This document shows, in pieces, positions 7,615 to 61,659 of a stretch of DNA of 64,000 bases (position 1 is its first letter; each line of letters opens with the position of its first letter). The notes beneath the pieces were generated by a model, which saw nothing but the letters and a program-made list of their open reading frames with translations, was not told the origin of the DNA and did not search any database. The position numbers were made by a program, and so were the translations under genes. The stretch comes from Stramenopiles sp. TOSAG23-2 (taxonomy: Eukaryota > Sar): positions 1-64,000 of the forward strand of contig LT649240.1 of NCBI GenBank assembly GCA_900128395.1, in the 5' to 3' direction.

Positions 7615-8427
7615 GTGTGGGAAATTGTGCTAGGGGATATTATTACGATATCGATAGGCTTGGTAGCATACGTAAGGTTGATAGAGACAATCGATCGAGT
7701 TATGTATTTGCGTGCCATTTGTCAAAGCCGAATAAAGAAACTTTCCAACAGGATAGTTCAGTTTCACAGACTTTATCGATGCACTAGTAAAAGAGTTTAC
7801 CGTTGTGATAAAACACATGTATACGAAATGATTTGTGTAGGTGACACCTACAAGAAAGGCAGAAAAATTGGAACACTGGATGCCAGTAACGGTTTATACA
7901 AAATAGACAATAAATTTTTTAAATACAGATTCCAATTAGACAACAATAAAAATTTCAAGACAAGTGTAAATTATCGAATGTCATACAAGCATCGTAACCC
8001 AGCACGTGTAGCGCATTTGCGCTTAGGATGCATAAATGCAAGATATTTGAAAGAAACAATAAGAAGGAAAAGTATATTAGGTTTAGACAATATCACCAAT
8101 GAACATATAAATGCATTCGACGAATGCCCATGCATTGGATGTATTGCAGCAGCACGGGCAAAATTCAGCACAAGTAGAACTAGAGGTAAGCAGCAACTTA
8201 GCTCATACAGACGAGATGGCAAGGAATACCATCCAGGTGAATATGCCATTGATTTTGCTGGACCAATACCACAAGGTCGTTTAATGCATAGACATATATT
8301 CTTCATAATGCATCTACGTACGGGTAAAACATGGACGTACGGATCCCCGACAACAAGTACAAAGGATGTAATACCAATAATGAGACTATTTCTAAATGAA
8401 CGTCATCTAGAAGAATCATGGCAGTAA
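7615..8427 (+). mobile_element. Ty1/copia-type Pol fragment (GAG-pre-integrase and start of integrase)
   Basis: A 270-codon open frame without a convincing start. Residues about 130-175 match a copia GAG-pre-integrase zinc region (HLRLGCINARYL ... CPCIGCIAAARAKF), with the usual second His replaced by Cys. It then enters the integrase core: DFAGPIP carries the first catalytic Asp and is followed by a TGKTWTY segment. The frame stops at 8427 before the remaining catalytic Asp and Glu, and no reverse transcriptase, protease or LTRs are seen nearby. It is a truncated, inactive remnant. Confidence 0.7.
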
Positions 8428-33504: not shown

Positions 33505-34204
33505 TTTTTTAATAAGATGTTATTTTAAAATTTAAATATATATATATATTGATACTGATATCTATACTGATACCTAGATACACTGATATCTACGATATCT
33601 ACTGATATCATTAATGATACCAAATAATACGAATCATATGCGCGTGTGTAATTTACACTGAATGTCATGCTAACTAAAATATACGTACATATAAATGCAT
33701 AATTAAACGTTACAAAAGAGTGTAGTGTGTGTGTTTTTAATAAAACGCAAAAACGTACACGTAAAAATAATATTACAAAAAGCCTTTTATGATACTCGAA
33801 GTATATTTTACAATAATTTAAATTTTTCTTTATAATATGTATGATATTGATATCTCCATTATTATAAAAATTTTCTCTTACACATAATTTATCTAAAGTT
33901 TTTTTACAGGTTCACTAGTAAAATATGTATTTTATATTGTAATATATACGGCTTCGTACTTAATATTCTATAGATAAATCCTCGTCCGAATTTGATGAAT
34001 TAGATTTTGACAATTCTTCTCGTTTAGCTCATATATATATCATATTTAAATATTATTTCATAATATATTATGATAAATTACATTATACTCGTATGTACGA
34101 AGCGTTCGTAACACATAATATATAAAATTTATACAGGTATGCAGTAATACTCTATTCAAATATATATATTTTGTATATATATAGAGTGTGGGGCATAATA
34201 GAAA
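33505..34204. other. Convergent 3' gap with GATATC repeats and TACG hairpins
   Basis: Short CTGATATCTA-type repeats at 33550-33620. Inverted repeats TACG-GCTT-CGTA (33947-33958) and TACGAA-GCG-TTCGTA (34096-34110). No gene supported. Confidence 0.45.
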
Positions 34205-36793
34205 TCAATATGTAATAATCATGCCACCAAACGATATACCCGCAGATGTACCCACTAAACATATTTTATCCCCACGAACAATTCTACCATTTTCAATACC
34301 ATCGATCAAAGTTAATGGAATAGAGACACCAATGCAATTACCATATTTCGAGATTGTTGTTAAGATCTTTTCTTTTTCCCAACCAAGAATACTTAATGCA
34401 TCTAATGCTAATGCAGATGCTTGATGTGGTACTACCCAATTTACATCAAATGTTTGATTTTCATTTGTATCACGATGTAAGCGTAAACTAGATAATCCAT
34501 GATCCAAACCATCCACAAAACGTGCTGTGCATGGTCTTAAATATCTACCAACTAAGCCAATAGTTCCTGGTCCATCCATAATAAATTGAGCATTGTTTAA
34601 ATATGGATCAAACGTACCACCCCCCTTTACCGCGCATAAATCGCTACCAACACCAAAAGTTTCAAAGGAATAATGATTAATTGCACCAGACAGACTTTCA
34701 TTATTATGTAAGACATTTGAGGCAAAAGTTTTTGATGATAAAATAATTGCAGCAGCGCCATCGCCAAATAATGGGGCAGTATGTGGATCGGTTTTGTTCA
34801 CATTATGGGTTCTTCCAGCATTACACGCCGATAAAATAATCGTTCGATGCCTGCCATGTTGAATAAAACTACCAGCAATATCCATAGCAACCACAAAGGA
34901 TAAGCATGTAGCATGAATAGTAAAACTTGGCACACCACTATCACCTAAACCTAATTCATTTTGAATAAGACACGCATCGTCTGGTATCGCTTGATGAGGA
35001 ACTCCACCGCAATGGATAATACAATCCACATCATTGTACAAATCTAAGCCAGCTTTCTTGACAGCATTTTGTATAGCTGCACATGCCAATTGGATTTGAT
35101 TTTCCCCATTTAATAAATTAGCATGATGCCTAGTTACTACTCCACATCGTGTATTTTGAATAGAGCCAATAGGGAAATTCCCTACTTTCTCAACTTCGTC
35201 ATTTGTTACTATTCGTTTTGGCATTGCTTTACCATATCCAATAATAGTTGCATTATATAGTATTGAACAACTTGTTTTTATTTTACCTGGGTCATCATTA
35301 ATAATAATATTATCTTCATTTACTATAGTATGTTTCACATTATTGGCGTACGTAGTACTACTATTTTTCAGTTTTTTACTTTTGACTAGATTATCATTGG
35401 AACGATCAGCCACTTTGTTCATTACATCTATATACAATTTCATTGATTCATTTAAACCTAGATTAGAAACAAGTTGACGGGCTTTATATTTCTTTAAATC
35501 TTTTTCACACATGTGATCAAAACTTTGTGTTTCAGGTATTTCAATGAATCCAGATGTGATAGATTCTTTTTCATTTATTTTCTTTCTTTTTGAAAGCTTT
35601 TCAACTTGTTTATAAGCTCCATAAACTTTCATGCCCTCCTCCTCTGTAAATAAATAAGATAACATTGTCACAAGTTGTGTTGCCAAAAAATATTGTTCTT
35701 CAAGTGTCAATTTTTCGTTTCTCCATGGCCATTTTTGTTTGTTATTTTCATTATCATTACAAGATGAATTATTTGAATCATTTCCTTCCGTACGTTTATT
35801 ATTATTATTATACAGTAAAAAATATAGTTTTAAACGTGTATAAATTCCATATTTATCATTTGCAAAATTTAAAAATAATATTAAGTAAGTTACATATATA
35901 AACAATGATATGCCAATAGACGTGTTTGTCACATTACAGTTGTTGAAAGATGTTGCCGAGAAATTATTGAAATTTTTATGATAATATGCAAAAGATAATA
36001 AAACAATGCCACAAAACATTTGTAAACATTGGACAAATGTTATTAATTTTGGAATTTTACCATGGGATGGAAACCGTTTTCTACCATATTCAGTATAAAC
36101 AATAGCAAAGTAGGCATACATTAAAGAATGGACAGCTAAATTCATAGCAGCAAATGTAGCTGATGGGGCACTTTCATGTGCAAGCTCATTCCATGCCCAT
36201 GGTAAAACAGTTGAATGATGCCAAAAATGTAACATTGAAATTTTCCGTTTTCGCAATATTAAAAAGATGGTATCTCCCAACTCTAAAGCTTTTGAAAATA
36301 CAAATAAACATACCCATAATGATGCTGGGCCATTTTTCACAGCATAAGCATTATCACATGATACGGATACAAAGATATTATAAATATCAACGTTGTTTCT
36401 CATGCTATGTACGGCATTTAAAAAAACATATGGAACCACCCTTGATGTACCATAAATAGAAAAAAGTGCTAAAAAAATATTCCATGCGAAAAAAAAATTA
36501 GAATTTGAAGAACATATTGCTCGTTCCCTTGTTTTCATGATTCGCTGTCCAATTATGACAATGCTAATATATAAACAAACGATGATATACATGGCGTTGT
36601 AATTATTTTTAGCAAATTCAACGAGTGTATCTGGTATAAATTCAAGCTCATATGGTGTATACATATATTTTTCAAAAGTAAATGTTTGTGTTTTTCGTGA
36701 ATTACAATATTTTTCGGGACTGTTATTTTTTACATTGCCATTGTCATAAGCAAAAACATTAGAAATGAAATCCATCATATGGAAGGCAATCAT
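34205..36793 (-). CDS. Fusion: ELO fatty-acid elongase + acyl-CoA-binding domain + KAS III (FabH-like)
   Basis: One uninterrupted 862-codon frame. Residues about 45-330 are an ELO-family elongase with several membrane segments, KALELGDTIFLILRKRK, the catalytic histidine box LHFWHHSTVL and MNLAVHSLMYAYF. Residues about 360-465 look like an acyl-CoA-binding protein: LTLEEQYFLATQLVTML, then MKVYGAYKQ, and KYKARQLVSNLGLNESMKLY, in the right order and spacing, with an insert in the loop after YKQ. Residues about 515-862 are a thiolase-fold 3-ketoacyl synthase III with the full triad: Cys in FTIHATCLSFVVAMD, His in WVVPHQASAL, Asn in YGNCIGVSIP; GDGAAAIILSS is also kept. Substrates cannot be deduced; initiation or extension of acyl chains at the ER is the natural guess. 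Confidence 0.88.
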   Translation of the reverse strand: MIAFHMMDFISNVFAYDNGNVKNNSPEKYCNSRKTQTFTFEKYMYTPYELEFIPDTLVEFAKNNYNAMYIIVCLYISIVIIGQRIMKTRERAICSSNSNFFFAWNIFLALFSIYGTSRVVPYVFLNAVHSMRNNVDIYNIFVSVSCDNAYAVKNGPASLWVCLFVFSKALELGDTIFLILRKRKISMLHFWHHSTVLPWAWNELAHESAPSATFAAMNLAVHSLMYAYFAIVYTEYGRKRFPSHGKIPKLITFVQCLQMFCGIVLLSFAYYHKNFNNFSATSFNNCNVTNTSIGISLFIYVTYLILFLNFANDKYGIYTRLKLYFLLYNNNNKRTEGNDSNNSSCNDNENNKQKWPWRNEKLTLEEQYFLATQLVTMLSYLFTEEEGMKVYGAYKQVEKLSKRKKINEKESITSGFIEIPETQSFDHMCEKDLKKYKARQLVSNLGLNESMKLYIDVMNKVADRSNDNLVKSKKLKNSSTTYANNVKHTIVNEDNIIINDDPGKIKTSCSILYNATIIGYGKAMPKRIVTNDEVEKVGNFPIGSIQNTRCGVVTRHHANLLNGENQIQLACAAIQNAVKKAGLDLYNDVDCIIHCGGVPHQAIPDDACLIQNELGLGDSGVPSFTIHATCLSFVVAMDIAGSFIQHGRHRTIILSACNAGRTHNVNKTDPHTAPLFGDGAAAIILSSKTFASNVLHNNESLSGAINHYSFETFGVGSDLCAVKGGGTFDPYLNNAQFIMDGPGTIGLVGRYLRPCTARFVDGLDHGLSSLRLHRDTNENQTFDVNWVVPHQASALALDALSILGWEKEKILTTISKYGNCIGVSIPLTLIDGIENGRIVRGDKICLVGTSAGISFGGMIITY

Positions 36794-37182
36794 TGAAAGT
36801 ATAGTTTACAACCTCAACGATGATTATCGTCGTGGTGGTGAATCAAAAAAACGATTGATGTAATTTATATATATGTATTATTACCATGTCTTGTTTATAA
36901 TTTATTATGTGGTGTATCTCTCTCCACTATGGTGCTAGACAGTGGATATCCATGCTGTGTCCATACTGTAATAAAAAGAAAAAAATATTATAAACTGGCT
37001 ATAACCTAAACCAGCTAAGTGCACAAGTGTGCAAAAATAAAAAAGCAAAAATTAAATATACACACAAATAATAACATAACATTATGTAAAGCATTGTATT
37101 ATTATTTTATTTGATTTCAAAGAGAAAATTTTATTCTCTACGTCATAATGACAACCTCGTAGACATGTCAAATAATAAATTT
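36794..37182. other. Gap upstream of the fusion gene
   Basis: AT-rich promoter-type sequence between the fusion-gene start and the end of the PHD gene. No gene supported. Confidence 0.4.
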
Positions 37183-56864: not shown

Positions 56865-57686
56865 TTATGGTGACGTCACCTTTTGCTCATTATTTGGTTG
56901 GTATTTACTCAGTGCGGCTTCTACACCAAATGTTTTATTCAAAAATGGACGTACATCATCTAATGGTTTCAGTCTCTTCACAAAATTTTCTAATATACTC
57001 AATGCATTATCTCTGCAATTACCATACCAACTTAAAATTGGCACACCATTTCTAGGTTGTGGTAAAAATGACATTGGGTTGTTATCTACAAGTATCGTAC
57101 GCGTCATATCGTTTTGGTCACATACTTTGGTCAAATCCTTTACAAACGTTTTGCCTTTAAATTTGGTACACTCCGTGCGGTAATAGCATCCAATGAAAAT
57201 TTCTTTCTTTGGATCTAATAAGTTCAAAATTGGTTTAGCATAGTAACTTTCAGATGCTGTGAAAGCATATACATCATGTTCCAACGCTAAGTTTCTCAAG
57301 AAACGATCTACGCCAGGGCGTTTTCTAACTACCACGTCGTGCAAAGTGCCATCAAGTGCTTGGATTTTCACCAATATTCCTTCCACTTTGTCACTACGTT
57401 TCGATTCATTGCTACCATCCATGCCAGTACGTAATTTTGCTACGTTCTCATTGACTTCTGCATGAATCAGTGTCTCATCAATATCAAGTACTACTTTTAA
57501 TCTTTGTGTTTTTTTAATATTACTGCCGCTATTGTCTCTACCAGACACGCAACAGACATCATTGAAGACTTCTGCATGAATCAGTGTCTCATCAATATCA
57601 AGTACTACTTTTAATCTTTGTGTTTTTTTAATATTACTGCCGCTATTGTCTCTACCAGACACGCAACAGACATCATTGAACATCAT
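56865..57686 (-). CDS. FCP1/SCP-type (NLI-interacting factor) phosphatase with duplicated catalytic motif
   Basis: 273 aa. HAD-family CTD-phosphatase domain: VVLDIDETLIHAEV carries the DxDxT nucleophile, VVRKRPGVDRFLRNLA follows, FTASESYYAKPILNLLDP and TRTILVDNNPMSF carry later motifs, and NGVPILSWYGN completes the core. A 114-bp in-frame tandem duplication doubles the N-terminal 38 residues, so the catalytic DIDETLIHAE appears twice (about residues 30 and 68). Only the second copy is continuous with the rest of the domain. Ser/Thr phosphatases of this group act on RNA polymerase II CTD or other targets. Confidence 0.88.
   Translation of the reverse strand: MMFNDVCCVSGRDNSGSNIKKTQRLKVVLDIDETLIHAEVFNDVCCVSGRDNSGSNIKKTQRLKVVLDIDETLIHAEVNENVAKLRTGMDGSNESKRSDKVEGILVKIQALDGTLHDVVVRKRPGVDRFLRNLALEHDVYAFTASESYYAKPILNLLDPKKEIFIGCYYRTECTKFKGKTFVKDLTKVCDQNDMTRTILVDNNPMSFLPQPRNGVPILSWYGNCRDNALSILENFVKRLKPLDDVRPFLNKTFGVEAALSKYQPNNEQKVTSP
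57453..57686 (+). repeat. In-frame direct duplication, period 114 bp
   Basis: GACTTCTGCATGAATCAGTG at 57453 recurs at 57567, and the following bases match to the end of the gene's 5' end. 114 bp equals 38 codons, so the phosphatase frame is kept. Confidence 0.92.
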
Positions 57687-60825: not shown

Positions 60826-61659
60826 ATGTGCATGAATACTTTTATCATTATATTATTAACATTATTATTATGTGTAATTGTACATGGGGATGTTTATATG
60901 AATCAACCTAGAGGTAGTAACAACAAATTAAATGAAGTTAGTGATAATGTACGAAATGATAATCGCTTATTTGATAGTCAAAACAATGCTGCAGCTGGAT
61001 ATCAAGTTGGTGATAAATGCAATCCATCATGTGCCATTGATACAAACAACGATAGGAATGCAGCACCAGATACATATAGATCGGATTATCCAGGAGCAGG
61101 GAAAGGGATCATGTATTATTATGCATCTAGCTTCTTACAAATAGAATGGACTGCGCAGCATGGATGTGGTGTAGAAGACCGAACGAATCAGTGTGAGATG
61201 ATACTACAATACATGTGCGAAGATACAACGAAAGGAATAAGGGATGGCACCACACGTGCAACAATTGGTGGTGGGCATAATGAAAATGGTGGAAATACAG
61301 CTGATAATGCTGCCGGGTTAAATGAAAGAGTATTTCCAAGCGAAGAGAAAGCAAATGATCCGAAATATGGTCAACATGAAAATTTCAATTATTATATGAA
61401 TTGTAAAACAAGGGAGAGAAATAAAGGGTTATTTACTTCGGATAAATTGCAATCAACGACAAGGCAGCAAACCGCACTTTATACGAGACAAGGCAACAAC
61501 GGAGAACGTTATGGTTTTGAATGTCCAGAGGAACGAGATTACTATCCATATTGGCATCCATCACCTTGGCGTGATATTGCTGTTTTAACTGATGATACTT
61601 CACGTTGCAAATATTATCAAGAGATGCTTTGTATTTCATCAAGAAAATTTTTAAAATAA
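60826..61659 (+). CDS. DD3-3-like secreted protein, probably C-terminally truncated
   Basis: 277 aa from ATG 60826 (MCMNTFIIIL). Signal peptide to about residue 22, then DVYMNQPRGSNNKLNE, NRLFDSQNNAAAGYQVGDKC, YYYASSFLQIEWTAQHGCG, EMILQYMCEDTTKGIRDGTT, and near the end CPEERDYYPYWHPSPWRDIA. These match the Dictyostelium DD3-3-type extracellular domain shared by many protists and animals. The frame stops after CKYYQEMLCISSRKFLK, earlier than the family's usual end, so the C-terminus may be lost. Function in the family is unknown. Confidence 0.82.
   Translation: MCMNTFIIILLTLLLCVIVHGDVYMNQPRGSNNKLNEVSDNVRNDNRLFDSQNNAAAGYQVGDKCNPSCAIDTNNDRNAAPDTYRSDYPGAGKGIMYYYASSFLQIEWTAQHGCGVEDRTNQCEMILQYMCEDTTKGIRDGTTRATIGGGHNENGGNTADNAAGLNERVFPSEEKANDPKYGQHENFNYYMNCKTRERNKGLFTSDKLQSTTRQQTALYTRQGNNGERYGFECPEERDYYPYWHPSPWRDIAVLTDDTSRCKYYQEMLCISSRKFLK

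Follow-up and report, generated by a model that had tools for sequence, protein, structure and literature searches.

ELO elongases and condensing enzymes of the thiolase fold carry out the same chemistry but are unrelated, and as a rule they belong to separate pathways. ELO enzymes yield 3-ketoacyl-CoA, which is normally handed to a reductase; they carry the motifs K..E..DT, HxxHH, NxxxHxxMY and TxxQ, and the usual ELO protein stops shortly past its last membrane helix. Among ketosynthases, MxnB and CorB join two β-ketoacyl chains to give α-pyrones, as in myxopyronin and corallopyronin, and MxnB has two substrate tunnels that meet near T322 (PMC5724707). OleA and PpyS are FabH-descended ketosynthases that join acyl chains with a catalytic Glu (E117 and E105, respectively) supplied by the partner subunit; MxnB and CorB have V94 at that place, and it has been suggested that their β-keto nucleophile, lying between two carbonyls, may be deprotonated without Glu (PMC4578411). 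Here we describe a gene of Stramenopiles sp. TOSAG23-2 that encodes an ELO elongase, an acyl-CoA-binding (ACBP) domain and a β-ketoacyl-ACP synthase III (KAS III) domain in one frame. It lies in a stretch of 64,000 nucleotides (contig LT649240.1 of assembly GCA_900128395.1, positions 1 to 64,000), hereafter called the window. The earlier note on this DNA knew of no described protein with this domain order, and we too found no description of it in searches of openly available full-text papers, as judged by titles and the openings of abstracts.

The gene occupies 34205..36793 on the minus strand, as do all of its features given below, and runs uninterrupted from an ATG at 36793 to a stop at 34205-34207, encoding a protein of 862 amino acids. 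The stop-free frame of 862 codons claimed in the earlier note is thus borne out, on the minus strand: from stop to stop it extends over 866 codons, the plus-strand reading of the same interval contains many stops, and the probability of such a run at the local base composition is approximately 3e-32, on which ground a chance frame was rejected. Pfam matches across the whole protein were to ELO (residues 62-315, E 2.4e-50), ACP_syn_III (625-689, E 9.2e-12) and ACP_syn_III_C (780-861, E 3.3e-19). The ACBP domain falls between these matches and is set off by two linkers, the first Asn-rich with a GC content of 0.241 (residues 316-362, 35708..35848) and the second at residues 465-512 (35258..35401). 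We hold it almost certain that ELO, ACBP and KAS III, in this order, make up one real protein. GC content at third codon positions is similar in the ELO, ACBP and KAS III domains (0.236, 0.206 and 0.203, respectively), and a recent insertion of foreign DNA was rejected on this basis; the contrary point is that the overall GC content is higher in KAS III (0.369) than in ELO (0.302).

The same domain order recurs in proteins from other sources. The first protein search, which scored only the 7997 candidates with the most shared words, returned six proteins, all of which align along the whole ELO-ACBP-KAS III layout at 31-99% identity: P0002 (99%), P0003 (70%), P0004 and P0005 (50% each), P0006 (38%) and P0007 (31%). 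P0002, which comprises 43 member sequences, possibly comes from the same organism as the window; the others, at 31-70% identity, are likely to belong to different species. A second search, with the alignment of these proteins as the query, recovered P0002-P0005 again, but not P0006 or P0007, and added P0008, which covers ELO, ACBP and the first part of KAS III and then diverges, and P0009, an animal ELO without the rest of the fusion. With the KAS III domain alone as the query, 8000 candidates were scored and 2217 proteins reached E≤1e-20. Among the 120 of these that were listed, P0011 and P0014 start within ELO and continue through ACBP and KAS III, P0022 has ACBP and KAS III with no ELO match, and P0010, P0012, P0013, P0015, P0016 and P0017 are pieces of KAS III, of which P0015 starts, by eye, with the end of an ACBP. 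P0014 is listed in EukProt as an MMETSP0800 protein of the diatom Striatella unipunctata (taxon 210618); MMETSP is a transcriptome project. The fusion relatives come from differing sources (ncbi, ena, jgi, lgn and eukprot), and this variety, together with identities of 31-70%, therefore excludes a chimera of the window assembly for practical purposes. An assembly or gene-model fusion was likewise rejected, given the shared layout, the diatom protein and the scarcity of direct repeats: at 20 bases or longer, the interval 33900-37100 holds only one 23-base pair, at 78%.

The ELO domain (residues 62-315, 35849..36610) scores 171.8 bits against PF01151, above the curated cut-off of 27, and contains six hydrophobic segments of 19 residues by hydropathy. 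All four ELO motifs are present. Conservation was assessed in a 10-row alignment of the window protein with P0003-P0008, P0011, P0014 and P0022, in which rows absent from the ELO part are truncated or ELO-less. K168, E171, D174, T175, H189, H192 and H193 are invariant in all seven rows with letters there, and N218, H222, M225, Y226, T252 and Q255 in all nine rows with letters there. These include the three His of the histidine box H189-F-W-H192-H193 (36215..36229) and H222 of NxxxHxxMY (36128..36130). The catalytic motifs are shared with the ELO (ELOVL) elongases, whereas the window protein differs from the usual members in its 547 further residues, which contain two more domains.

The ACBP domain (residues approx. 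363-464, 35402..35707) was not listed in the Pfam scan of the whole window protein, even at E≤1, and an ACBP-profile search of the organism's own genome (17.45 Mb in 793 contigs, as for all own-genome searches) matched three other places at E≤1 but not 34205-36793. When the 120-residue middle was scanned alone, it matched positions 2-75 of the 76 in the ACBP profile (PF00887) with E 0.0033 and 18.0 bits, below the cut-off of 28.3. Six relatives were scanned as well, and the domain scored above the cut-off in P0006 (2e-14) and P0007 (1e-7) and below it in P0003, P0004, P0005 and P0008 (5e-5 to 8e-4). A profile built from seven segments of the ACBP region gave 25 matches among PDB chains at E≤1, of which 18 are named ACBP, ACBD or ACB-domain (best E 2.9e-8); the others were an ‘uncharacterized protein’ (0.0069), an enoyl-CoA isomerase (0.009) and five EsxB or epsin-2 entries (0.38 and weaker). 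Y391, K395, K435 and Y454 are the same in all 10 rows of the alignment and Y394 is Phe in two of them; these five positions are presumably acyl-CoA-binding. The match thus spans nearly the whole profile and includes the YG.YK, K and Y positions, while departing from an ordinary ACBP in its divergence, its long insert and its setting between two synthases. Judged by homology through its relatives and the family profile, the window protein has a divergent but real ACBP, because P0006 and P0007 pass the cut-off and the family profile retrieves ACBP structures. According to the earlier note, lack of an ACBP match in residues 360-465 would have reduced the protein to a two-part fusion; the match was obtained by way of the relatives and the family profile, but the window protein itself stays below the Pfam cut-off.

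The KAS III domain (residues 513-862, 34208..35257) contains both Pfam halves. Against solved structures, MxnB (4v2p) and CorB (4yuc) rank first, whether the query is the window protein, P0006 or the family profile; the profile scores MxnB at 267.7 bits and CorB at 255.6, followed by a FabH-type entry at 186.8 and OleA entries at approximately 64 or less. The best NCBIfam model is PRK07204 (221.5 bits, below its cut-off of 402), and the FabH model TIGR00747 reaches 149.8 bits against a cut-off of 292.1. We placed the domain in a tree of 91 rows (IQ-TREE, LG+C20; midpoint root for drawing only), for which the listed proteins were thinned, E. coli FabH and the OleA-like L090 (one very long row) were added, and P0016, P0017, L021, L058 and L080 were dropped as fragments. 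The KAS III domains of nine fused proteins group with four fragments in a single clade (support 100/99). The label ‘fusion’ takes five changes on this tree, because the fragments P0010, P0012, P0013 and P0015 are unlabelled and the clade has an open fork at its base. The simplest reading is a single, bacterial-type origin of the KAS III part. The clade stands in an unresolved fork with MxnB/CorB and uncharacterized bacterial enzymes from Anaerolineae, Hydrogenedentota, Fraserbacteria, Planctomycetota and others, and the branch that holds the fusions and MxnB/CorB is split from the two FabH rows with support of 97/94. A scan of viral contigs for the KAS III domain gave seven pattern matches and no relative.

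Residues of the domain were compared in an alignment of 117 KAS III rows, which draws on 41 of the 80 retained bacterial loci and on 67 of the 120 proteins listed. Fifteen of the rows belong to the fusion family: 13 come from the clade in the tree, and the other two, P0016 and P0017, are placed by similarity only; P0002, as a near copy, and P0008, with its short KAS III, are left out. The catalytic triad of Cys630 (34904..34906), His790 (34424..34426) and Asn819 (34337..34339) is the same in all 117 rows. The catalytic residues named in the earlier note, the HFWHH box and the Cys-His-Asn triad, are indeed present, and the alignments give no sign of a dead domain in the fusion. At the place of OleA E117, PpyS E105 and MxnB V94, the window protein has Ile603 (34985..34987), and I or L is found in all 15 fusion-family rows. 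Glu occurs there in none of the 117 rows (their FabH row has Phe), while the OleA-like L090 has Glu. As far as the alignment goes, the I/L at this site excludes the OleA/PpyS type without choosing between MxnB-like and FabH-like chemistry. Thr849 (34247..34249), equated with MxnB T322 by counting back from the MxnB C-terminus, is Thr in the 15 fusion-family rows, in MxnB and in CorB, but also in 39 of the 41 rows from bacterial loci and in 57 of the remaining 58, with Phe in E. coli FabH. The KAS III fold, the triad, the non-Glu base site and this Thr are thus common to the window domain and MxnB/CorB, which are stand-alone bacterial proteins acting on chains bound to carrier proteins, whereas the window KAS III is a protist domain that shares its polypeptide with a membrane elongase and an ACBP. 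It also shares their branch of the tree; yet the non-Glu base site is a property of all 117 rows. W32, R36, R151 and R249 of FabH are presumably contact residues for CoA and ACP; neither the fusions nor MxnB/CorB retain R151 or R249. A canonical FabH was rejected on the unmatched TIGR00747 cut-off, the separate position in the tree and the loss of W32, R151 and R249 (R36 is kept).

The bacterial relatives were also examined in their genomic setting, using the best 80 of 106 KAS III loci. A neighbour was scored as present in another locus when any part of that locus had a BLAST match to the corresponding L011 gene (E≤1e-8, more than 50% of the query covered), so that paralogues are counted alike. 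By this measure an OleD-like reductase and a lactonase-like metallo-hydrolase each occur in 39 loci, a TIGR02304 AMP ligase in 35, an ATP-grasp protein in 30 and a GNAT-like protein in 28. The reductase of L016 scores 266 bits against the OleD model (cut-off 580), whose name, 2-alkyl-3-oxoalkanoate reductase, implies a two-chain substrate. Within the fork that holds the fusion clade, L011 has all five neighbour kinds, L012 and L014 at least two, L009 two, L013 one and L010 none. This setting lends modest support to two-chain chemistry in the branch. PRK07204 (NF005541), the best NCBIfam model for the window protein, is also the best for the KAS III of L009 and L016; in contrast to the window protein, which is below the model cut-off, the bacterial members are separate genes, often clustered with the OleD-like reductase, the lactonase-like hydrolase and the AMP ligase. 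In the organism's own genome, OleD-like matches were weak (best 90 bits against the cut-off of 580) and, as 14 of 14 control genomes match too, uninformative.

Three arrangements among these loci are recorded in their own right. A recurrent cluster, seen in several phyla (L009-L088; for example L016:5944-12487, from Brevibacillus fluminis, and L011:20-6984), combines a PRK07204-type KAS III with the five neighbour kinds and is perhaps an uncharacterized pathway resembling OleABCD. In Candidatus Uabimicrobium amorphum (L014:5145-10142), a short-chain dehydrogenase gene and two genes with matches to GT21, a family of ceramide glucosyltransferases, come after the KAS III gene; this suggests a glycosylated lipid as the product. 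In L010 (120-6700), a frame of 1863 amino acids with AMP-binding, carrier, ketosynthase, acyltransferase and thioesterase domains immediately precedes the KAS III gene.

ELO enzymes yield the same class of β-keto substrate as the nucleophile of MxnB, and the mechanism that we tentatively favour is one in which the KAS III domain joins the β-ketoacyl chain made by ELO to a second chain. The ELO domain, in the membrane of the endoplasmic reticulum, would use malonyl-CoA to convert acyl-CoA to 3-ketoacyl-CoA, and the ACBP, on the cytosolic side, would keep the long-chain (3-keto)acyl-CoA nearby. KAS III would then load one chain on Cys630 and join the second, β-keto-activated chain to it without a catalytic Glu, as in MxnB/CorB, and a two-chain ketolipid or α-pyrone would result. 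Diversion of some 3-ketoacyl-CoA to this use is suggested because a KAS III of the MxnB/CorB branch and an ACBP sit beside the ELO. The wider proposal, that the protein is a self-contained eukaryotic two-chain synthase, running from elongase through built-in ACBP to bacterial-type ketosynthase, and that it makes a new class of two-chain ketolipids or α-pyrones in protists, diatoms included, we regard as possible if somewhat doubtful. The head-to-head or polyketide-like chemistry envisaged in the earlier note survives in part, as the KAS III lies on the branch of the two-chain enzymes MxnB and CorB (PMC5724707) but lacks the catalytic Glu of OleA and PpyS (PMC4578411).

A number of observations weigh against the joining of two chains. 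MxnB/CorB sit on a long stem (0.89) and their fork with the fusion clade is unresolved; to our knowledge, they are also the only characterized rows of the tree besides the FabHs. The substrates of MxnB are bound to a carrier protein, not to CoA. Absence of the base-site Glu is not peculiar to two-chain enzymes, as the 117 rows and the Phe of FabH illustrate, and Thr849 is a trait of the whole branch. FabH W32 is kept in MxnB/CorB and replaced in the fusions, while R36 is kept in the fusions and not in MxnB/CorB. The complete triad would equally suit ordinary decarboxylative condensation with malonyl thioesters, and the TIGR02304 ligase of the bacterial loci had no match in the protist's own genome.

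The strongest competitor, doubtful but to be taken seriously, is an ordinary decarboxylative condensation, in which KAS III adds a malonyl unit to an elongated acyl-CoA or 3-ketoacyl-CoA delivered by the ACBP, giving a 3-ketoacyl or a polyketide-like diketide product and making the protein a two-step extension module. The Cys-His-Asn triad, complete in every row, fits this equally well, and the nearest curated models, though below their cut-offs, are for β-ketoacyl-ACP synthase III. The place of FabH F87 is I or L in the fusions; F87 presumably lines the acyl pocket, and I/L there would open a longer one. Against such an extension, the nearest solved structures are two-chain enzymes and not FabH, FabH R151 and R249 are replaced, and since ELO itself adds malonyl units, there is less evident benefit in having another synthase in cis that does the same.

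It is unlikely that the ELO serves ordinary very-long-chain elongation while the ACBP and KAS III form an arm for regulation or thioester exchange that makes no C-C bond. Ketosynthases with acylating activity are mentioned in the literature (PMC4578411), and an ACBP binds acyl-CoA, but His790 and Asn819, whose counterparts are tied to the condensation step in FabH (PMC5724707), are unchanged throughout the 117 rows. Less probable still, and disfavoured, is a head-to-head enzyme of the OleA/PpyS type, where a Glu of the partner subunit deprotonates the bound chain on the way to long-chain olefins or photopyrones: OleA entries were matched, albeit at the approximately 64 bits or less noted above, and OleD-like reductases lie beside the bacterial relatives in many loci, but the required Glu, present in L090, is I or L in all 15 fusion-family rows. 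An assembly chimera, chance frame or read-through of adjoining genes, for which the sub-threshold ACBP of the window protein might speak, is scarcely credible against the same layout at 31-70% identity from several sources, the transcriptome-derived diatom protein and the single imperfect direct repeat around the gene.

Searches elsewhere in the organism's own genome gave a single further ELO match, three further ACBP matches and one KAS I/II match; neither a second KAS III C-terminal domain nor a light-harvesting protein turned up, and the stramenopile may be non-photosynthetic. Neighbours of the fusion gene in the window include NIF phosphatase and PHD-finger genes, which mark the organism as a eukaryote. 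The NIF-type phosphatase gene at 56865-57686 (minus strand) contains an exact 114-base tandem duplication of whole codons (57453-57680), which is either very recent or an assembly artefact. Two further frames had no Pfam match at E≤0.001: one of 241 amino acids (7702-8427) resembles, by eye, a partial retroelement integrase, and one of 277 amino acids (60826-61659) has, by eye, a signal peptide and an N-terminal MNQPRGSNNKL, recalling secreted copper oxygenase-like proteins.

On the sequence evidence, the fusion is probably a genuine, conserved lipid-making enzyme of protists. The bacterial relatives, for their part, outline an uncharacterized gene cluster in several phyla. We know of no enzymes for two-chain or polyketide-like lipids in protists; if the proposed reading of joined chains is true, this gene would be linked to such lipids, and a conserved ELO and ketosynthase with an acyl-CoA carrier between them would represent a new way of building lipids in protists.

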